DNA from: Planctomycetaceae bacterium | GTDB taxonomy: Bacteria > Planctomycetota > Planctomycetia > Pirellulales > UBA1268 | Length of the DNA: 9,307 nt | Reading direction: 5' to 3' | Assembly: GCA_030616935.1 (NCBI GenBank) | Contig: JAUWWJ010000039.1 | Location: 1 to 9,307, forward strand | Shown: in pieces, positions 1-9,307 of the stretch | Numbering within the stretch: the first letter of the stretch is position 1 | How the letters are laid out: each line of letters begins with the position of its first letter | Program-made: the position numbers and the translations under genes | The notes under the pieces: model-generated | The model's input: the letters and a program-made list of their open reading frames with translations, nothing else | What the model was told of the DNA's origin: nothing | Databases searched by the model: none

Positions 1-859
1 GACCCTGCCAGCTGGCTGGCGGATTCCTGTGGTCTTCCGGAGAGCTGGAAGACCAAGTGAAATTTTTGTTGAGCTAGCCGGAGTTCACACACCTGCAATG
101 CTCAATGAACTCATGGCTGGACGCCGAGCTCCCCTGTCAGAAAACAAACCTGGCGACAGCCCAGAACCCAAGCCAAATCCTTTGGCCCCCGATCCGGCAG
201 ACCTTCCAGAGTCAATTCAAAAATTCTATGAACCTCGTTTTGGCTACGCCAACTTTTATTTCAACAGAATCGAACTTGAACGGGTCCGTGAGGTTCTCCA
301 ACGCAGAAAATCAGCCTCTGAAAAACAAGATACATCGTGGCGATACCACGGACAGCTTGAGACCGGCGGCTCTTTTGAGATTGAACTGAGTGACCAGTCG
401 GCAACAATTTCTCTTCCAACCGGAATATCTCGTTGGGAACAGGCTGCTGCCGATGCAGGCCTCTCTGCTGAAGCTGGGTTTGACTCAAGCCCTCCAGGAT
501 CAGGCGGCATGCTAGCAGCATTAACAATGTGGCGACGTCTACTTACAGAAGGTGCACAGAATATTGACGGACGTATCACCTACTGGGGGCAGCAGCCACT
601 TTATTCAACATCCACAAACCAATTGGCTGATGTTCTTGAACTGACAACAAGCAGCTGTCGTTCTCGATTTTTTATTGATGAATTTGGAAATGTTTCACAC
701 GTAACATTTTTTCTTGGATCCTCCTCTACTTCGTGCGACCTGCATTTCACTGGACTAAGTAAACGCGGGCCATACTGGCAGCCAACGCATCTGACTGTCG
801 ACTATGACGGCGACCGATTTGCTACATTCCACTTTGAGAAGGGTGAGCAACAAAAGTAG
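1..859 (+). CDS. C-terminal part of a PDZ-containing, probable S1C (HtrA-like) exported protein; 5' truncated
   Basis: The frame is already open at base 2 and runs 285 codons to TAG at 857-859, so the true start lies upstream of the window; the GTG at 29 is internal. The first residues (LPAGWRIPVVFRRAGRP followed by a beta strand and LAGVHTP) look like the last strands of a PDZ domain, as found after the protease domain of HtrA-family proteins. A proline-rich linker follows (DSPEPKPNPLAPDP). The last ~200 residues form a beta-rich domain with a YWGQQPL segment, a central FFIDEFGNV strand and a C-terminal PTHLTVDYDGDRF strand, a pattern I associate with planctomycetal S1C proteins. The stop abuts the next ATG, and two further S1C-type genes follow, which supports the family call. 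Whether its protease domain is active cannot be seen here. The function of the C-terminal domain is unknown. Confidence 0.7.
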   Translation, partial: TLPAGWRIPVVFRRAGRPSEIFVELAGVHTPAMLNELMAGRRAPLSENKPGDSPEPKPNPLAPDPADLPESIQKFYEPRFGYANFYFNRIELERVREVLQRRKSASEKQDTSWRYHGQLETGGSFEIELSDQSATISLPTGISRWEQAAADAGLSAEAGFDSSPPGSGGMLAALTMWRRLLTEGAQNIDGRITYWGQQPLYSTSTNQLADVLELTTSSCRSRFFIDEFGNVSHVTFFLGSSSTSCDLHFTGLSKRGPYWQPTHLTVDYDGDRFATFHFEKGEQQK

Positions 860-1930
860 ATGAATTTGAGAACCCAACACCAAACTGCCGTGTGCTCAAG
901 AACACTCCAAGTAGCCATAGTACTGGGGGTTACTTCTCTCGCTCTCTGCCCCACTCGAGCGATGGGTGGTGACGTCACAGCAGTAAGCGTGGATGCTGCA
1001 AGCCGTGTCGTGAAACTCTACGGAGCAGGTGGTATTCGTGGCCTGGAGTCATACCAAACAGGGATACTCGTCTCTCCATCGGGCCATATCCTGACCGTAC
1101 TGAGTACAGCAATCGACTCAGAAGTGATTGATTGCGTTCTCGATGATGGCCGCCGTTATACCGCGAGCCTCGTTGGTGCGGACCTTCGCCGAGAATTAGC
1201 AGTCTTAAAAATAGATGGCACTAATTTGCCTTTTTTTAAGCTTTCGGCAGACTCACCTCGACAAGTTGTTGGAACCCGTGTGCTGGCTTTGTCAAATCTT
1301 TTCGGGGTAGCAGTTGGTGACGAGCGGGTAAGCATTCAACAGGGCGTTATTGCGGCCCACGTACCGCTTCGAGCCCGCCGAGGGTCTCACGAGGCTGCAT
1401 ATCGTGGAGATGTCTATATTCTGGATTGCACAACCAACAACCCAGGCTCTCCTGGTGGATGTCTCATTACTTGGCAGGGGAATTGCATTGGCATGCTTGG
1501 TAAGGAATTACGATCTGCCGAAAATGCGACATGGTTGAGTTACGCAATCCCAACGAACGAGTTGGCTCTTGGACTTGAAGCTATCTTAAGCGGAAGAAAC
1601 AACGAATCACTTGCAGGTGAGAAAGAGGCTTCGGATTTTGACATCCGGTCACTTGGCCTGGAGTTAGTTCCCGATTTACTTAATTTGACACCACCTTTCG
1701 TGGAGGCGATTGTGCCAAACACGCAGGCTGCCGAAACTGACTTGCAGGCCGATGATCTTATTGTCGCGGTTGGAAATCGCACCGTCACATCACAGCGAGG
1801 CCTTCGCCAAGAACTCTCTTATCTTATTCCTGGTGATCCCATTCAATTGAATATCATACGTAATGGGAGAATCGTCCTGGTAGATTTGGGCGTCGTCCCC
1901 TCTCTTACCGAATCCAGAGGGAAAAGGTGA
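860..1930 (+). CDS. Exported S1C trypsin-fold/PDZ protein with a lost catalytic triad (pseudoprotease)
   Basis: This is a 356-residue protein. Residues 1-35 look like a signal peptide (basic start, hydrophobic ~17-30, PTRA near the cut), so it should act in the periplasm or envelope. Residues ~43-240 have the HtrA/DegQ trypsin fold: GILVSPSGHILT, RELAVLKID, the NNPGSPGGCLI segment around the nucleophile elbow, and YAIPTNEL. Residues ~263-347 are a PDZ domain (VEAIVPNTQAAETDLQADDL, LNIIRNGR). Compared with the family consensus, the catalytic His (ILTNxH) is Ser82, the Asp (xDLAVLKI) is Glu112 and the Ser (GNSGGP) is Pro198. I infer no serine-protease activity, leaving a binding, scaffold or regulatory role. 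ATG 860 directly follows the upstream TAG (857-859). A GA-rich stretch ~836-847 is the only nearby ribosome-binding candidate and is rather far, so translational coupling is likely. It is 3 bases from the next gene. Confidence 0.85.
   Translation: MNLRTQHQTAVCSRTLQVAIVLGVTSLALCPTRAMGGDVTAVSVDAASRVVKLYGAGGIRGLESYQTGILVSPSGHILTVLSTAIDSEVIDCVLDDGRRYTASLVGADLRRELAVLKIDGTNLPFFKLSADSPRQVVGTRVLALSNLFGVAVGDERVSIQQGVIAAHVPLRARRGSHEAAYRGDVYILDCTTNNPGSPGGCLITWQGNCIGMLGKELRSAENATWLSYAIPTNELALGLEAILSGRNNESLAGEKEASDFDIRSLGLELVPDLLNLTPPFVEAIVPNTQAAETDLQADDLIVAVGNRTVTSQRGLRQELSYLIPGDPIQLNIIRNGRIVLVDLGVVPSLTESRGKR
1923..1930 (+). promoter_or_regulatory. Ribosome-binding site of the 1934 gene, inside the upstream stop
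   Basis: AAAGGTGA lies about 5-8 bases before ATG 1934 and contains the TGA stop of the preceding gene. This fixes the start and implies that translation of the two genes is coupled. Confidence 0.65.
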
Positions 1931-1933
1931 AAA

Positions 1934-4033
1934 ATGAATGGTGTCTTCAGACGAATTACTTCAATTCATTTGATGCTGGGTGTATGGTTTCTTTGTGCCG
2001 TGTCTGTGAACCCGTGCTACCCGGCTCAAGCCACACAACAGACACCACCCGAGCGAGTCCTCGCCGAACAAACAGCTTTCCAAAAGGCTCTGAACGGAAT
2101 CGCTGATTCCGTTGTCCGAATTGAACCAACTGGTTTATCTATAGCCACCCTACAAGGTGCGCGTGAAGCAACACCGACTGCAGGTCCATCGAGCGGTCTT
2201 GTTGTTGGAGCCGATGGCTGGATTCTTACTACTGAATTTGCCGTCCCCTCTGATATTGAAGAAGTAGTTATCACGCTACCACCAAAGAAAAAAATAACTG
2301 AAAGCTCAAAGCAGTCGCCTAAACGACTGGTGGGGCGAGTCACTGGACGAGACCTCAATCGCCGCCTTGTTCTTCTCAAGTGTGATCCCAAAGAGCCACT
2401 CACTGAAGCTGAATTTGTTCCTCGAAAAAACGTGCGACCCGGTGAATGGGCACTTGCTGTTGGCCGAGTATGGGATCTCTATGAGCCGAGCATCGCTATA
2501 GGTATTGTTTCTGCGGTAGGACGATGCTGGGGCAGAGCCATTCAAACCGATGCGGCAATATCGCCCGTGAATTACGGCGGGCCTTTACTCAACATTGAGG
2601 GGAAGGTTTTTGGCATCATTGCACCACTTCCTGCAGAGACTGCAGGCATGTCTACAGGAACCGAGTTGTATGACTCGGGTGTCGGGTTCGCCATACCTAT
2701 GCACGACATTATTCCGCTCATTCCTCGACTCAAGAAAGGGGAGACACTCAAGCCTGGGCTGTTGGGAATTGGCTACTCAACAACGGACCCTATCAATGGA
2801 CGCCCTATTATAGAAATAGTCCGAACTGGCTCACCAGCCGCCAAATCGGGCCTCAAAAGTGGCGATCTCATTACTCAAATAAATGGTCAGTCGATACAAC
2901 GCATTGCAGATGTACGACATGCACTCACACCTAAATTGGCAGGCGACACTCTCGAAATCACCGTTCAACGTCCGGAGAAAAAAGCACCACTATCAATCCG
3001 TGCTGTTCTCACTGGCAAACTACCACCGTGGAAGCGGTCAATGCTTGGCATTGCCCCAGTGCGTCAGCCGTCGAAGAGTAATGCAAAAAGCATGGAGGAG
3101 GGCGTCGCTGTCAAGTGGACATGGCCGAACGGTCCGGCAGAGAAAGCTGGCATCCAGCCTCAAGACGTGATCACTCACGCTGCAATAGTTTCACAAACCA
3201 ATGAAGACGATCTTCCTCTTCGATCAATCACATCATCGAACCAATTAGCCGGCCTCCTCGGCGGACTCACAATCAATACTGATATTGTCCTCAAGATTCG
3301 CAACTCAAAAACGTCCCGGAAGGTCCGAGTCACAACCGCACCTTTCCCTGAAAAACCTCCAAATGAGGTTCCTGAATTCGACGCAACCAATAAGGCCACC
3401 CCACCACCTGCAATCGTGAAGCTTGAAATCCCAGAAGTAGCGGAACCTTCGTGGGCACTTATTCCGGAACGGCGGGATGGCCCGCCGGCTGGTGTTCTCG
3501 TGTTTTTTGACGAGCCATCTGGGATGCTCTCAGAAAAAGCTGTGACCGTCTGGACATCGAACTGGCGGGAGGCTGTTGCCCAATATCGAGTTGCCCTGGT
3601 TTTAATACCATCTTCAGATTCCGGCAGTTGGCGGCAAGCAGATCTGGAGCGGGTCGGAAAGACAATTGGTGCATTAGCACAACGCTGCGAAATTGATCCA
3701 ACCAGAATTGCCTTTGCCGGCTCAAAAGCAGGCGGGACATTCGCTTGGCTGGGAGCAAATCGATTCGACACGATAGCTCGCGGGGTCTGCCTGATCGATG
3801 CTGACATACCTCGCCGAACAAGAATCCGCGAAGCCTCACCAGATCGTTTCCGTTGGGTGCTCTTTGGCACTACGACCACGGAAAAAAACAAAGAGGAAGG
3901 GAGCCAGCAGTATCAAAAAACCCTGAAACGACTTCGCCAAGCCGGTCTCCCTGTCGGTGAGATCACGTTAGGAGATGAAACGGAAAGAGCATCTAAGCTC
4001 TGCCAGTGGGTTGAATCGATCGGCGTGCTTTAG
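1934..4033 (+). CDS. Exported S1C trypsin-fold/PDZ-PDZ/alpha-beta-hydrolase protein; both enzyme domains appear inactive
   Basis: This is a 699-residue protein. Residues 1-31 form a signal peptide (RR, then a hydrophobic stretch, cut near YPA). Residues ~50-262 are an HtrA-type trypsin fold (SSGLVVGADGWILT, RRLVLLKCD, AAISPVNYGGPLLN, GVGFAIP). PDZ1 is ~274-360 (GSPAAKSGLKSGDLI) and PDZ2 ~370-468 (GPAEKAGIQPQDVI), the latter with a longer insert at ~418-435. After a Pro-rich linker, ~500-699 resemble an esterase/S9-like alpha-beta hydrolase (AGVLVFFDEPSG, RIAFAGSKAGGTFAW). The trypsin triad positions read Phe102 (His), Arg144 (Asp) and Tyr214 (Ser). The hydrolase elbow GxSxGG reads GSKAGG, with Lys598 at the nucleophile; the usual Asp and His regions also show no match. 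A good ribosome-binding site (AAAGGTGA, 1923-1930) overlaps the previous stop. I infer a structural or client-binding envelope protein. Its partner is unknown; the neighbours are the obvious candidates. Confidence 0.85.
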   Translation: MNGVFRRITSIHLMLGVWFLCAVSVNPCYPAQATQQTPPERVLAEQTAFQKALNGIADSVVRIEPTGLSIATLQGAREATPTAGPSSGLVVGADGWILTTEFAVPSDIEEVVITLPPKKKITESSKQSPKRLVGRVTGRDLNRRLVLLKCDPKEPLTEAEFVPRKNVRPGEWALAVGRVWDLYEPSIAIGIVSAVGRCWGRAIQTDAAISPVNYGGPLLNIEGKVFGIIAPLPAETAGMSTGTELYDSGVGFAIPMHDIIPLIPRLKKGETLKPGLLGIGYSTTDPINGRPIIEIVRTGSPAAKSGLKSGDLITQINGQSIQRIADVRHALTPKLAGDTLEITVQRPEKKAPLSIRAVLTGKLPPWKRSMLGIAPVRQPSKSNAKSMEEGVAVKWTWPNGPAEKAGIQPQDVITHAAIVSQTNEDDLPLRSITSSNQLAGLLGGLTINTDIVLKIRNSKTSRKVRVTTAPFPEKPPNEVPEFDATNKATPPPAIVKLEIPEVAEPSWALIPERRDGPPAGVLVFFDEPSGMLSEKAVTVWTSNWREAVAQYRVALVLIPSSDSGSWRQADLERVGKTIGALAQRCEIDPTRIAFAGSKAGGTFAWLGANRFDTIARGVCLIDADIPRRTRIREASPDRFRWVLFGTTTTEKNKEEGSQQYQKTLKRLRQAGLPVGEITLGDETERASKLCQWVESIGVL

Positions 4034-5358
4034 AACCGATCATCAGTGAACGTGGGCCTCAAGGCCGTCTTCGAAACTTTGTTCCAATACCTCGAAAATC
4101 TGCCGAGATCCTTTACTTTACTGGCGTCACAGAAAGACGGCCAATCAAAAGGAACAACTGGCGTTGTACTAGCCAGCCTGTCGACAACCTGACGCACGGC
4201 AGGACAAGATGTGTTCGCCACACTGATAGCATTCGCACTATTCGCGCGAGCTCTCTCCTGCAAAACCGTAGCAGTATCTCCAAACCATATTTCCACATCT
4301 GGAAGATCTGCTAGACACTCACAAATAAACGCTATGCGCTTAAAGGAGGGACGTTCATCAGATAGCCAGTGCTGGTCAAATACAAAAATTGCCGGTGATT
4401 CTGGAAAGTGAAGTTTGGCAGGAGAACAAGCCGAAAGTGAGTCAAGAGTCATCCATACAAGCGATTTACCAGGAATGTCTGAAGAGCACCATGACACTAC
4501 TGGCGGTATCGTAAGTCTCACTTTTCGCTCATCAGAATCATTCATAAACAACTTTTCATTAAGCTGTTCGTATGTCCCTTCAAAATCACAATGCCCGAAA
4601 GCAGGGCACGTTTCACAATAAATCCCAGCAGTAAAACGCTCCAAATTCTCGCGGTTGAAAATATATGGCTTGCTTGAGAACGTTCCCGCAATCCACTGCC
4701 ATGAAAAATTATTACTGGCGGGATCAGCGTCGAGCAGATGCTGAAGAAACCAGGCGGCACCCACCCTCCAAGTCACTTTGCGAGTATGAACAAGCCACGA
4801 TGCAAGCCACATCCGTTCGTGATTGTGAAGCCAACCATCGTGTGTAAGTTTTCTACAAAATGCATCGATGCAGTCCAAGCCAGTTTCCCCACGCGCAACC
4901 GCATCTGGAAGATGGTCAATTACCTGCCCTCGATGCCTTGTGGCGGGAGTTTCGAAATCATGCCACACTCCCTCAGGGCGAGCTGCACGAACCCGCTGCC
5001 AATAATCTCGCCATCCCAATTCGGCAATAAGTTTTTCAGCTTGCGATGCTTGCTGTACTTTTGAAAGAGCTACATCACGAACCTCTGTTAGAGACAACAC
5101 TCCGTGACGAAGCCACGGAGACAACTTCGTAACATCGCCTGAGACAAAATTCCTTGTTCGACCATATTTAATTGGCTCGATCTTCTGTAGCCGTTCAATT
5201 GCTTTGAGTCGTCCTCCGCGAAATTGGCTCCCGGAGAAGTTTTCGATTTCGACGGCCGTCGGAGGCGGCAGCTCATGCCCCGTTACGAGATGGAACTCAC
5301 GAGCAATGCGTGAATGCATCGCCTCAGAGTCATTTCTGCATGACTGGAGATTCTTCAT
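4030..5358 (-). CDS. Photolyase/cryptochrome-family flavoprotein with the FAD domain first and an antenna-like domain last
   Basis: This is a 442-residue protein from ATG 5358. I prefer this start to ATG 5403 (457 residues) because AAAAAGG lies 7-8 bases upstream, while 5403 has no clear ribosome-binding site. Residues ~40-240 carry the photolyase FAD-domain signatures in order: FRGGRLKAIERL, TKLSPWLRHGVLS, WRDYWQRV, TGLDCIDAFCRKL, GWLHNHERMWLASWLV, then DADPASNNFSWQWIAG and PYIFN. These are flavin-binding and redox-Trp regions of light-dependent DNA repair enzymes. A cysteine motif CETCPAFGHC (248-257) follows. Residues ~298-435 look like a Rossmann domain (PAIFVFDQHWLSDE, EIWFGDTATVLQERA, GRFSRYWNKV), resembling the N-terminal antenna domain of classical photolyases moved to the C-terminus. 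It could repair CPD or (6-4) photoproducts or be a light sensor; substrate and cofactors beyond FAD are not decidable. The gene stands alone and overlaps the convergent gene by 4 bases. Confidence 0.85.
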   Translation of the reverse strand: MKNLQSCRNDSEAMHSRIAREFHLVTGHELPPPTAVEIENFSGSQFRGGRLKAIERLQKIEPIKYGRTRNFVSGDVTKLSPWLRHGVLSLTEVRDVALSKVQQASQAEKLIAELGWRDYWQRVRAARPEGVWHDFETPATRHRGQVIDHLPDAVARGETGLDCIDAFCRKLTHDGWLHNHERMWLASWLVHTRKVTWRVGAAWFLQHLLDADPASNNFSWQWIAGTFSSKPYIFNRENLERFTAGIYCETCPAFGHCDFEGTYEQLNEKLFMNDSDERKVRLTIPPVVSWCSSDIPGKSLVWMTLDSLSACSPAKLHFPESPAIFVFDQHWLSDERPSFKRIAFICECLADLPDVEIWFGDTATVLQERARANSANAISVANTSCPAVRQVVDRLASTTPVVPFDWPSFCDASKVKDLGRFSRYWNKVSKTALRPTFTDDRF

Positions 5359-5365
5359 AACGGGA

Positions 5366-5372
5366 CCTTTTT
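5366..5372 (-). promoter_or_regulatory. Ribosome-binding site deciding the photolyase start
   Basis: Read on the minus strand, GGTGAAAAAGGTCCCGTT precedes ATG 5358. AAAAAGG is at good spacing. The 45-base-upstream ATG at 5403 has no comparable site. Confidence 0.5.
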
Positions 5373-5772
5373 CACCTGCCCGAAATACAGGCACCAAGTG
5401 CATGAATACGGGACTTCAGTGGAATCTTGACTGACCAATAAAACGTACAAACGGGAACACACAGGCAAGAAATACAGAGTCTTACTGAACCCCAGTTTCT
5501 GCGGCGATAGGCACATGCCATATCGGCACAGAACTTGCAATGATTCATTTTAGGATTGTGAGGAAATATGCCCACGAGAGCGATCTTGAGTGCGTAACCA
5601 AACATTCTATCGTGATGCCTCAATGATTAACGCCCTCGCATTTCTTTGAAAACATGACGTGTCTGCTGATCCTTTCAAGGAGCACAGTAGTCATAGATGG
5701 CAACAAAAATCGTTATTCACCAGCTAAATACACGTGAGCAAACCATGCACCTGTGTCTATAAACCCTCCATT

Positions 5773-5835
5773 TATGGATGCCCCAATGGCTTGAGTGAGC
5801 AGTCCGCCTAGCTCGCTCAGGTCGGGGCATCCGTA
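5773..5835 (+). promoter_or_regulatory. Long stem-loop upstream of the PII gene
   Basis: The outer arms are 5773-5784 (TATGGATGCCCC) and 5824-5835 (GGGGCATCCGTA), pairing over 12 positions with one G-U. An inner stem pairs 5792-5800 (TGAGTGAGC) with 5811-5819 (GCTCGCTCA) through one G-U, around a 10-base loop. An asymmetric internal loop separates the two stems. No T-run follows on either strand, so it is not a classical terminator. It ends 69 bases before the GTG at 5905 and could be a leader RNA structure, a small RNA or a repeat element. I recognise no known family. Confidence 0.6.
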
Positions 5836-5904
5836 TGCTTAGTTCTAGAAAGGGTACCATGACGTAAGCTGGTTATTATTGACACAAACTCAAAGGCGGA
5901 TCCG

Positions 5905-6252
5905 GTGAAACTGATTATTGCAATCATCCAGCCCGACAAACTCGAACGAGTCAAACAAGCCTTGTCAGACGTTGAGGTCTTTCGTTTGACGATCCTCGAT
6001 GTCCAAGGCTTCGGCAGGCAACTTGGTCACGCGGAGACTTACCGTGGTCATGAAATTGCAATTAATCTCTTACGCAAGGTCCAACTTCAAATAGCTATTA
6101 ATGATGAATTCGTTGAGCCAACCATCCAAGCGATTCAGAAGAGTGGCCGATCCGGATTAGCTGGAGAGATTGGTGACGGAAAAATTTTCATTCTACCGAT
6201 GGATGAATGCGTCCGCATTCGCACAGGAGAACGAGGAGAAGAAGCTATTTAA
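5905..6252 (+). CDS. P-II family nitrogen regulator, variant T-loop without Tyr51
   Basis: This is a 115-residue PII signal protein (GlnB/GlnK superfamily). PII is a cytoplasmic trimer that senses ATP/ADP and 2-oxoglutarate and binds nitrogen-control targets. Conserved parts are the start KLIIAIIQPDKLE, GFGRQ with Gln39, HAETYRGHE with Tyr46, Lys58, GDGKIF with the ATP-contacting Lys, and C-terminal RIRTGERGEEAI. Departures from E. coli GlnB are Ile at the Tyr51 uridylylation site, His at 49, Leu40 for Lys, Gln60 for Lys, and three extra residues just before GDGK (SGLAGEIGDGK), which put Ala where Thr83 normally sits. That explains the length of 115 against 112. The GTG start is preceded by AAAGGCGGA (5892-5900). 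No amtB or glnA is adjacent. Control by GlnD-type uridylylation at the usual site is unlikely; targets are unknown. Whether it is the main PII or a specialised paralogue cannot be told. Confidence 0.9.
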   Translation: MKLIIAIIQPDKLERVKQALSDVEVFRLTILDVQGFGRQLGHAETYRGHEIAINLLRKVQLQIAINDEFVEPTIQAIQKSGRSGLAGEIGDGKIFILPMDECVRIRTGERGEEAI

Positions 6253-6284
6253 AAACATGACCCTTGAAACGAATCACAGAGCGA

Positions 6285-7844
6285 TCAGAGCTGCTGAGGA
6301 TGAAGCCTTGGCTTGCCTCCGATGGCGACACGATTCACTGCGGCAAGAAATGCTTTTGCTGACGCTTCTAGTGAGTCAGTTGACACACCTCTCCCTCGGT
6401 GCAGTTGTCCTCTATATCGCTCAGAAGTTGCTTCAAGCTCAACGGACACTTCTGCCTGAGCGTCTTTCCCGACTGTGACGGCCTGCACCCGAAAATCACG
6501 GCAGACCGTTGTGATGCCTGTTATTTTTTCAATCGCAAGAAAGATGCCATCAATTGGACCGTCGCCACTTGTTATCGACACTACCTGACTTTTTCCATCT
6601 TGTTTAACGCGAAGCGTCACTGTCGGCGCATTGCCACTTTCGCACGAAACCGAGTACCCTTCAAAAACGAAAAGCTCTGGCAACACGGCAAATTGCTGTT
6701 CACAGAGTGCTGCAATATCTCCGTCATAGATTTCTTTCTTCCGATCTGCCAGCAGTTTAAATTGTTCGAAAACTGTCTGAAGCTGTTCTCCTGTCAACTG
6801 ATAACCAAGAACGGCTGCCCGGTCTGCCAGAGCTGCTCGACCACTGTGTTTACCAAGCACCAGATCAGTCCGTTCAAGCCCAACGTCCTCTGGACGCATG
6901 ATTTCATATGTGCTTCGATCTTTCAGCATGCCATCCTGATGAATGCCCGCCTCATGGGCGAACGCATTCCGTCCAACAATGGCCTTGTTTCGTGGCACCT
7001 GAATTCCTGTGATATTCGCAACAAGTCGACTCGTTGGTACTAACCGCTGCGTAGCAATTCGACTCTGGCACTTATACAAGTCGGCTCGCGTCTTGAGAGC
7101 CATCACGACTTCTTCAAGTGAACAATTCCCAGCTCGTTCGCCAATCCCATTGATAGTGCACTCAACCTGACCAGCACCAGCCTGAATAGCTGCCAAGCTG
7201 TTTGCAACCGCCAACCCAAGATCGTCATGACAATGAACACTCAGAACTGCCTTATCGATATTGGGGACACGATTCCGAAGCGCATGGATCACATCAAACA
7301 TTTGCTGCGGCGTAGCATACCCAACGGTATCTGGAATATTAACGGTAGTCGCTCCAACATCGATGACCGCCTCAACCACGCGACAAAGAAAATCTATTTC
7401 TGTACGAGCAGCATCCTCTGGCGAAAACTCGATATCTCCACATTTTTCTCTTGCCCGACGGACACCTGCTACCGCTCGCCGAACGACCTCGTCTTCATCC
7501 ATCCGGAGTTTGAACTCACGGTGGATTGCACTCGTTGCTAAAAACACATGAATTCGAGGGCGGGCTGCTTCAGTGAGTGCTTCCCAGGCGCGGTCTATAT
7601 CACTGTCGTTGCACCGAGCGAGGCCACAAATCACCGGCTCTCGAACTGCACGACCGATTTCGCGAACTGATTCGAAGTCACCGGGAGAAGCAATTGGGAA
7701 ACCCGCTTCAATGACATCAACTCCTAATTGAGACAATGCATGCGCAACCTCAATCTTCTCGGTGAGATTCATGCTTGCACCCGGAGACTGTTCTCCGTCT
7801 CGAAGCGTCGTATCAAAAATTTTGACTGATTGATGAGCAGACAT
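6285..7844 (-). CDS. leuA: 2-isopropylmalate synthase
   Basis: LeuA condenses acetyl-CoA with 2-oxoisovalerate to 2-isopropylmalate, the first committed step of leucine synthesis, in the cytoplasm. The protein has 519 residues, a normal length for the bacterial form. The N-terminal TIM barrel shows FDTTLRDGEQSPG (10-22), IEAGFPIASPGDF, SPEDAARTE, VNIPDTVGYATP, the metal-binding HCHDDLG (204-210) and GIGERAGNCSLEE (233-245). The linker subdomain has AFAHEAGIHQDGMLK (294-308) and GKHSGRAAL. The C-terminal leucine-feedback domain (~390-505) includes SGDGPIDGIFLAIEKITG and GRGVSTDSLEAS, so feedback inhibition is expected. ATG 7844 fits the family start, but no good ribosome-binding site is near; GGAAAGG lies too far upstream. 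The gene stands alone, convergent with PII (32-base gap, no obvious terminator) and divergent from mazG. I see no leucine-rich leader peptide. Confidence 0.96.
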   Translation of the reverse strand: MSAHQSVKIFDTTLRDGEQSPGASMNLTEKIEVAHALSQLGVDVIEAGFPIASPGDFESVREIGRAVREPVICGLARCNDSDIDRAWEALTEAARPRIHVFLATSAIHREFKLRMDEDEVVRRAVAGVRRAREKCGDIEFSPEDAARTEIDFLCRVVEAVIDVGATTVNIPDTVGYATPQQMFDVIHALRNRVPNIDKAVLSVHCHDDLGLAVANSLAAIQAGAGQVECTINGIGERAGNCSLEEVVMALKTRADLYKCQSRIATQRLVPTSRLVANITGIQVPRNKAIVGRNAFAHEAGIHQDGMLKDRSTYEIMRPEDVGLERTDLVLGKHSGRAALADRAAVLGYQLTGEQLQTVFEQFKLLADRKKEIYDGDIAALCEQQFAVLPELFVFEGYSVSCESGNAPTVTLRVKQDGKSQVVSITSGDGPIDGIFLAIEKITGITTVCRDFRVQAVTVGKDAQAEVSVELEATSERYRGQLHRGRGVSTDSLEASAKAFLAAVNRVAIGGKPRLHPQQL

Positions 7845-8152
7845 GATCAGTTAAAAACTTGCCTTTCCAAGATAACCCAGGCACTTCTCAGAATAATGTG
7901 GCCCCGGAACCACAAGTCTAATTTAGCAGACCTTCTTGATTGTCCACCCTCTCTGAACTCTTGCTACCCCCAAGAACCTATGGCATCCGTATAGAGACAG
8001 AAAACCGCTGCTTCCGCCTAATATCGGGTCCTTGTTAGCACCATGCGGCATTGCAGACCATCTACATGCCTCCAAAGTTCCGCTCTGGTATCATCAAAGG
8101 TTGGGAGTTTCGACGGACATGACCAGGACGACTCTAATCGAGTAGACACAAG
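7845..8152. other. Divergent intergenic region between leuA and the MazG gene
   Basis: These 308 bases should contain promoters for both directions. I find no convincing -35/-10 pair, T-box, leader peptide or tRNA. The only structure noted is a weak hairpin, TGTGG (7897-7901) with CCACA (7910-7914) around an 8-base loop. Confidence 0.55.
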
Positions 8153-8452
8153 ATGACACTTCGTGAGTTCCAACAGCTCATTCGCAATATGTACCACGAC
8201 AAGGATGCTGCGCGTGGTGTCGAAGGAACATTCATGTGGCTGACAGAGGAAATTGGGGAACTCGCAACTGCCTTACGAAGCGGCTCACCTGAAGAGCAGG
8301 CCTTGGAGTTTGCTGATGTCTTGGCATGGCTCGCAACCATTGCAAATGTTGTCGATGTCGACCTCGAGCAGGCAATTGCAAAAAAATACGGACAAGGCTG
8401 TCCTGGCTGCGGGCAAATTTCTTGTACCTGCCCCGATGCGGAGAAGCCATAA
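8153..8452 (+). CDS. MazG-type nucleotide pyrophosphohydrolase with a cysteine-rich tail
   Basis: This 99-residue protein belongs to the all-alpha NTP pyrophosphohydrolase (MazG) superfamily, which cleaves NTPs or dNTPs to NMP and PPi for pool cleaning or stress control. The Mg-binding EExxE is at residues 32-36 (WLTEEIGELATAL) and the second acidic motif ExxD at 52-55 (EFADVLAWL). These are followed by the family's long helix and DLEQAIAKKYGQGCPGC. The length fits a single-domain member. The C-terminus carries C83-x2-C86-x4-C91-x-C93, a likely metal site, probably zinc. Start 8153 has no strong ribosome-binding site; the first residues (MTLREFQQLI) fit the family. The stop TAA shares its last A with the next gene's ATG, so the two are translationally coupled, though no functional link is evident. 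Nucleotide preference is unknown. Confidence 0.88.
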   Translation: MTLREFQQLIRNMYHDKDAARGVEGTFMWLTEEIGELATALRSGSPEEQALEFADVLAWLATIANVVDVDLEQAIAKKYGQGCPGCGQISCTCPDAEKP

Positions 8453-9231
8453 TGATTCCTAGGCAACTCATACTCTGCTTCCTTTTTTTGATTGCCACAC
8501 CGGTGGTCGGTATGGCGACATCTGACAGTCAGGAGTTCTCGGCTGAAATTGGCCTCAACGGAATTGTTCGTGCAGGACACTGGGCGCCGGTGACACTTCG
8601 AATTCCACAGTCTCTTGCGCAACCATCAACTCGCTACGTTGCTGTAGAAGCGCAGGACCCAGATGGACAATGGCTTCGATCACCACTGGTTCGTCCCACT
8701 TCGATAAACGACACACAATGGGCCGCAAGGCTTCTTGTAAAGATTGGTGGCCGAGACAGCACCATTCGGGCCATGGTCATCGACACGACGGAACCAAATG
8801 CAGACAGATCGCATCTCACAGAGGTGGTTGCTTCAAAAATAATACCTATCCCGCGACTACTGGAATCAAGTCAGGAAGTCTTGATGCTTCTCGGCGACCT
8901 TGAGAATGCAACAAGAGCGTCTCGACTTGCGGCTCGGGAAGATGGGTCACGAATGCTTGTGGTTTCTCCTGAGCCACGTTCCGAATCGCTTCCACTCTCT
9001 TCTGTATTTGGCCCTCCGGGGCTAACGTTTGACGGCATCGACAAGGCGATAATCTGTGGAAATGCGGTGACACGAGGCATTTCAGACGATCGCCTTCTTG
9101 AGCTTGATGCATGGGTCCGGGAGGGAGGTGACCTCCTTCTCATATCAGGAATGTCGCTTCCGGCTGCTATATCAACGTCTCCATCTCTCGAGTCATGGCT
9201 CCCTGGCAAGTTCAGCCGGCTGGTCCCATAA
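8452..9231 (+). CDS. Exported protein of unknown function, interrupted by an in-frame TAA
   Basis: The 259 residues run from ATG 8452, which overlaps the MazG stop in TAATG. GGAG (8440-8443) lies about 8 bases upstream and supports this start over upstream in-frame ATGs inside mazG. Residues 1-22 form a signal peptide with hydrophobic LILCFLFLIATPVV. Residues ~28-112 look like a beta-rich domain (SAEIGLNGIVRAGHWAPVTL, a substituted-Ig-like pattern). Residues ~140-258 look alpha/beta, ending DAWVREGGDLLLISG and LPGKFSRLVP, recalling the glutamine-amidotransferase-like domains of large planctomycetal exported proteins. The TAA at 9229-9231 seems premature: after it the same frame reads protein-like to the window edge (RRASALETYARSS). 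The gene is therefore probably a broken copy of a longer protein, or the base call is wrong. I do not know the function. Confidence 0.7.
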   Translation: MIPRQLILCFLFLIATPVVGMATSDSQEFSAEIGLNGIVRAGHWAPVTLRIPQSLAQPSTRYVAVEAQDPDGQWLRSPLVRPTSINDTQWAARLLVKIGGRDSTIRAMVIDTTEPNADRSHLTEVVASKIIPIPRLLESSQEVLMLLGDLENATRASRLAAREDGSRMLVVSPEPRSESLPLSSVFGPPGLTFDGIDKAIICGNAVTRGISDDRLLELDAWVREGGDLLLISGMSLPAAISTSPSLESWLPGKFSRLVP

Positions 9232-9307
9232 CGTCGGGCATCTGCGCTTGAAACATATGCGAGATCCAGTCGACCACTCGCCCGCCGAGCTATTGAAGAG
9301 CTACAGA
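9232..9307 (+). pseudogene. Probable continuation of the 8452 gene beyond the in-frame stop
   Basis: In the same frame as 8452-9231, 25 codons stay open to the window end (RRASALETYARSSRPLARRA, then IEELQ). Together with LPGKFSRLVP before the TAA, this reads as one domain. A second frame is also open here, so the support is moderate. Confidence 0.45.

Follow-up and report, generated by a model that had tools for sequence, protein, structure and literature searches.

The window analysed here is the whole 9,307-nt stretch of a Planctomycetaceae bacterium (UBA1268; GCA_030616935.1, contig JAUWWJ010000039.1, positions 1-9,307, forward strand). Its minus strand carries a photolyase gene whose product has the flavin adenine dinucleotide (FAD) domain first and the photolyase antenna domain second. 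The open reading frame (ORF) is real and encodes 457 amino acids; the 442-aa protein of the original prediction is the product of an internal ATG, and both lengths occur in close relatives (457 aa in P0002, P0004 and P0005; 442 aa in P0003). Residue numbers of the window protein follow the 457-aa form unless stated otherwise. Very probably, the protein is a blue-light DNA photolyase with four cysteines and inverted domain order, the type represented by Phr4/Phr5-Phr6 in picocyanobacteria and present in this planctomycete as a single fused chain. The gene and its domains are as follows:

4030..5403, minus strand: reversed-order photolyase gene; 457 aa, or 442 aa from the internal ATG at 5358
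4516..5364, minus strand: FAD (catalytic) domain, residues 14-296 of 457
4063..4464, minus strand: core of the antenna-type alpha/beta domain, residues 314-447 of 457

FAD-first domain order of the window protein

Pfam placed FAD_binding_7 at residues 126-247 (E 5.7e-27) with no antenna domain N-terminal to it, and a PF04244-type N-terminal domain gave no match at E <= 1. The NCBIfam DASH model aligns from its position 200 (of 431), which falls on residue 52 of the protein (residue 37 of the 442-aa form), in agreement with the original prediction that only about 40 residues precede the FAD signatures and that the antenna is absent at the N-terminus. The protein thus departs from the class I order of an N-terminal antenna and a C-terminal FAD domain.

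The same prediction saw an antenna-like domain in the C-terminal region, and this proved correct. Taken alone, the C-terminal piece of the window protein matched PF00875 weakly, below the cut-off (E 0.14-0.16); at E <= 1 the family was matched by 13 of 24 C-terminal sequences, the window included, with a best value of 3.2e-5. A profile of 139 C-terminal domains was then compared with one of 30 PF00875 domains taken from other proteins in the relatives' genomes, giving a probability of 96.8, E 2e-10 and a score of 67.5. The best of 60 column shuffles scored 18.5 and the reversed profile 13.2, controls that rule out a chance resemblance, and the FAD part gave no match to the antenna profile. Comparison with 27 full-length normal photolyases yielded two matches in swapped order, query columns 82-273 aligning with template 202-407 and columns 337-452 with template 2-129; this two-part alignment recurred with E. 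coli Phr as the template's first row. The signal stems from the wider antenna set and not from planctomycete class I antennas, seven of which, taken alone, gave no significant match to the C-terminal profile (probability 5.7).

The predicted structure of the whole chain (predicted template modelling score 0.92) gave the same picture. Residues 1-281 of the model align with residues 183-475 of 1owl, and the C-terminal model (residues 284-444 of the 444-aa stretch modelled) aligns with approximately residues 1-126 of solved photolyases, so that the alpha/beta fold match whose absence would have spoken against an antenna is present. On the structure comparison, a universal-stress-protein origin of the C-terminal domain was rejected. 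A frameshift or a chimeric assembly was likewise rejected, since the fused order recurs in the uncut loci among L001-L019 and in 120 listed homologs.

The reversed order of the original prediction is therefore upheld by profiles and predicted structure. Its further suggestion, a circular permutation in the strict sense (the same three-dimensional arrangement with new chain ends), is one possible origin; a fusion or fission of domains is no less likely, since both domains occur as separate genes in cyanobacteria, in the phylum of an Anaerolineae locus (L027) and on one Deinococcus plasmid.

Active site, cysteines and substrate

E. coli Phr, whose residues have functional roles described in the photolyase literature, served as the reference for residue equivalence. 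The window protein keeps the equivalents of Y222, R226, S238, E274, W277, R278, W338, N341, M345, W359, D372, D374, N378, W382 and W384, whereas S235 is changed to Thr, R236 to Lys, L291 to Gly, M339 to Leu and R342 to His. Conservation was followed across 53 Cys-type rows, comprising 20 planctomycete fused, 5 cyanobacterial fused and 24 split cyanobacterial sequences (including L029, a record titled only 'bacterium') and 4 from the L027 phylum. N341, W359, D372, D374, N378, W382 and W384 are invariant among them, and E274 is Glu save for two rows with Gln and one gap.

Four cysteines are present in all 53 of these rows and at none of the four columns in the 16 rows of Burkholderiales or Bacteroidota type. 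Cys178 and the CxxC pair align with cysteines of the FeS-BCP prokaryotic (6-4) photolyases (PhrB), and together the four residues probably bind an iron-sulfur (Fe-S) cluster, putatively [4Fe-4S]:

4870..4872, minus strand: Cys178, first putative Fe-S ligand, aligned with the Cys of FeS-BCP 'MNC'; 53/53 Cys-type rows
4615..4617, minus strand: Cys263, putative Fe-S ligand (CxxC), from FeS-BCP alignment and row conservation
4606..4608, minus strand: Cys266, putative Fe-S ligand (CxxC), from FeS-BCP alignment and row conservation
4588..4590, minus strand: Cys272, putative Fe-S ligand, 53/53 Cys-type rows; beyond the FeS-BCP-aligned span, equivalence by motif

The active-site helix has HN, like E. 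coli Phr, in the window protein and throughout the 69 inverted-type rows, and HH in the FeS-BCP profile. Because of this HN, repair of cyclobutane pyrimidine dimers (CPDs) would be expected rather than (6-4) repair. The N-terminal half would accordingly hold FAD, probably the [4Fe-4S] cluster, and the flipped-out lesion; on illumination, reduced FAD would pass an electron to the dimer, which would then be split. The C-terminal alpha/beta antenna domain probably packs on the FAD domain and may act as a light-harvesting part, with a presumed chromophore, and/or as a capping part.

Several observations weigh against this assignment. The equivalent of W306, the outer tryptophan of the classical electron chain, is Gly in the window protein, and Leu and Val replace W271 and T234; its antenna domain has lost both the arginines of 'FRRDLR' and the 'YEP' motif found in normal antennas, which bears on chromophore binding. 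What is known of the planctomycete protein comes from its sequence and a predicted model. In addition, PMC9426592 infers (6-4) photolyase activity for Phr4/5/6 from their cysteines.

The foremost alternative, although an unlikely one, is the proposal made for Phr4/Phr5 and Phr6, in which an inverted-domain photolyase bearing an Fe-S cluster repairs (6-4) products. It would explain the cysteines shared with the FeS-BCP (6-4) enzymes, and phr4/phr5 matter for survival of ultraviolet-C (UV-C) rather than UV-B according to PMC9426592. The active site, however, is patterned like that of CPD enzymes, the N341 position being Asn and its counterpart in the FeS-BCP profile the second His of 'HH'. Xu et al. 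(2021) reportedly described CPD repair by a short photolyase-like (SPL) protein that bears an Fe-S cluster. SPLs are also termed CPD repair enzymes in PMC9649867 and PMC13274461.

We regard it as quite improbable that the window protein is a light sensor or a degenerate protein instead of a repair enzyme. PF00875 exceeded the cut-off in 29 of the 30 relatives' genomes and PF04244 in 27, so repair could be covered by other photolyases; against this, substrate- and FAD-site residues are conserved in all or nearly all rows, and phr4/phr5 protect E. coli against UV-C (PMC9426592). Only a very slight chance attaches to the C-terminal domain being another Rossmann-like fold (e.g., a universal stress protein) that merely resembles an antenna, as antenna domains of photolyases outrank other folds for the C-terminal model (Foldseek, VIA), the shuffled controls fall far short of the antenna profile match, and three fused Deinococcus relatives singly match the antenna hidden Markov model (HMM) at E 1.7e-10 to 7.7e-8 (six proteins searched).

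Relatives and known inverted photolyases

Of 6470 candidates in a protein search, 1405 were relatives at E <= 1e-3. The 120 matches listed are mostly 430-460 aa long, and the five with an organism in the source name are planctomycetes. All 120 carry a C-terminal region of more than 130 aa with an RFSR/RFTR end, so the same-order relatives that the original prediction had proposed to look for do exist. A contig scan gave at least 600 stretches, at least 581 of them confirmed, and the distribution described here rests on the best 80 loci. Among these, the fused Cys-type genes of L001-L019 have planctomycete titles, in three cases 'Candidatus Kuenenia stuttgartiensis', with contig ends truncating L014, L018 and L019; those of L020-L022, L024 and L025 are cyanobacterial. 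Genomes with the fused form are rare in the L003 phylum, the single match in 149 evenly drawn genomes (E <= 1e-30) being the centre genome itself.

Split pairs with the antenna ORF directly downstream were found in L023 (Synechococcus WH7803), L026 (Cyanobium) and L029. The Anaerolineae locus L027 has a FAD gene whose flanks contain no antenna ORF, the antenna gene lying on another contig of that genome. The junctions of the pair differ among strains. In WH7803 (L023:8790-8830) the FAD ORF stops at a single TGA and the antenna ORF resumes in-frame directly after it; in L026 the two ORFs overlap at ATGCTGA, where the antenna start and the FAD stop lie in different frames. Plasmids contributed 66 matching records, and the 25 listed include four from Deinococcus (L183-L186), three fused (456-472 aa) and one split, in which a 'hypothetical protein' overlaps the end of the FAD gene and matches the C-terminal HMM at E 4.2e-25. 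These Deinococcus plasmids are large, and L183-L186 are annotated merely as FAD-binding domain-containing proteins. The reversed form thus extends beyond cyanobacteria to further bacterial groups, as one joined gene in some and as two genes in others.

A FAD-first arrangement with a divergent C-terminal domain, often with an SFS-type end, was seen in L028, L030-L080 and L187 (Ruegeria TM1040). L028 and L030-L080 have mostly Burkholderiales titles, with Bacteroidota in L058, L060 and L071 and Paceibacterota in L073; together with L187 they probably represent the NewPHL kind, frequent in Burkholderiales titles. The Burkholderiales and Bacteroidota C-terminal domains gave no match to the antenna profile, with hhalign probabilities of 0.6 and 2.1, and a weak one to the planctomycete C-terminal profile (48.3 and 22.3), and none of their FAD-first frames matched the C-terminal or antenna HMM at E <= 0.01; we therefore claim no antenna fold for them.

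In a FAD-domain tree built by a quick method, with the WH7803 pair included and the NS01 and PCC 7001 Phr6 sequences left out, the planctomycete rows form one clade (Shimodaira-Hasegawa-like approximate likelihood ratio test, SH-aLRT, 97), and the cyanobacterial fused rows cluster with the split L023 and L026 (SH-aLRT 96). The planctomycete rows fall with the cyanobacterial fused and split members in one set of 50 rows at an SH-aLRT of 93, below the starred level. Three of the four Cys rows from the L027 phylum fall outside the main Cys-type set, and the 16 rows without cysteines (Burkholderiales, Bacteroidota) group apart. As fused and split rows are intermixed, joining or splitting would have occurred more than once, or been reversed.

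The original prediction took the permuted form to be apparently undescribed; the reversed order itself is, however, already published. In PMC9426592 (2022) it is known from cyanobacteria as Phr6 and Phr4/Phr5 of Cyanobium and marine Synechococcus, where loss of phr4/phr5 lowers UV-C survival, and PMC13274461 cites 'NewPHLs or SPLs' with 'an inverted domain topology' and CPD repair in single-stranded DNA. The window protein shares with Phr6 and Phr4/Phr5 the FAD-first order, the four Fe-S cysteines and the existence of one-gene and two-gene forms, and differs in its planctomycete host and its separate clade; best-segment identity to the fused cyanobacterial loci L020-L022, L024 and L025 is 39-40%. 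Inverted order also links it to NewPHL/Phr7 (Emmerich et al. 2020, via PMC9426592 and PMC13274461), but Phr7 has no Fe-S cysteines and a short 'Z-domain' in the account of PMC9426592. The FAD domain of the window protein is 55-63% identical to FAD-only proteins of approximately 280 aa (among the 120 of 1278 matches listed, some of these records being partial planctomycete ones), as in SPLs; unlike SPLs, described as lacking an alpha/beta domain (Xu et al. 2021, via PMC9649867 and PMC9178010), the window protein has this domain fused C-terminally. FeS-BCP enzymes have equivalent cysteines but place a PF04244-type antenna first, and class I CPD photolyase (E. coli Phr) has the same catalytic residues and both folds, in contrast with the opposite order, the missing W306 and the four extra cysteines of the window protein.

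Our literature searches found no planctomycete inverted photolyase. To the published picture the present analysis adds planctomycetes as a lineage with the fused form, the combination of Fe-S-type cysteines with an active site of CPD type, and the finding that the two parts co-occur when encoded separately.

Separate FAD and antenna genes, and the neighbours of the window gene

To the single-chain form were added two surveys of genomes with separate parts. Among 117 evenly drawn cyanobacterial genomes (phylum of L026), a separate antenna was found in 22 at E <= 1e-6 and a FAD-first protein in 23 at E <= 1e-40. All 22 genomes with a Cys-type FAD-only protein (CxxC...C motif) also carry a separate antenna gene. 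As profiles, these 22 antennas match both the planctomycete C-terminal domain (E 1.6e-32) and normal antennas (E 7.4e-12). The two genes lie within 300 bp in 12 pairs, within 2 kb in 3, far apart in 4 and on different contigs in 3, and in all 15 linked pairs both genes share a strand, with the FAD gene upstream. In the L027 phylum (121 genomes), a FAD-only gene occurs in five, all with an antenna at E <= 1e-29; the FAD match of G412 covers residues 140-262 only, the antenna of G388 is broken over two contigs, and G331 and G348, with weak antenna profile matches in frames of 531-617 aa, were not counted. Fisher's exact test, which ignores shared ancestry, gave 2.9e-24 for cyanobacteria (6.7e-23 with G204 counted) and 3.0e-8 for the L027 phylum.

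Two genomes speak against the pairing: the cyanobacterium G204 has a FAD-first protein without a separate antenna, the protein being of the non-cysteine kind and 451 aa long, and G364 of the L027 phylum has an antenna (L182) with no FAD match at the cut-off used. The Rhodococcus SPL lineage lies outside the genomes surveyed.

This co-occurrence suggests that the separate FAD and antenna proteins act together and that the window protein is their fused counterpart. For adjacent phr4/phr5, heterodimerization or frameshifting was proposed earlier (PMC9426592); the pairing of unlinked genes is an addition, as far as our literature searches show. We lean slightly towards the view that Cys-type 'antenna-less' FAD-only photolyases (SPL class) make up one of the two parts of an enzyme, the antenna subunit being encoded by a separate and sometimes unlinked gene. 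If so, FAD-only photolyases would not be relics of a primitive antenna-free enzyme. The pairing bears on the claim that they are ancestors of the family, a proposal of SPLs as photolyase/cryptochrome ancestors repeated in PMC9498864; an SPL gene in S. elongatus is listed in PMC9178010. Reversed-order photolyases indicate that the two domains need neither the usual order nor covalent joining to persist together in evolution, and the fused, adjacent and unlinked versions offer a natural series in which to examine what the antenna domain requires for its function.

In the window, the 3' end of the photolyase gene overlaps by a few bases the convergent plus-strand gene at 1934-4033 (Trypsin_2, PDZ), which belongs to a tandem of two genes at 860-4033 (plus strand), each with a Trypsin_2 and a PDZ domain. 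On the other side, a P-II nitrogen regulatory protein gene at 5905-6252 (plus strand) is convergent with a gene of the 2-isopropylmalate synthase type at 6285-7844 (minus strand), which encodes HMGL-like and LeuA dimerization domains.
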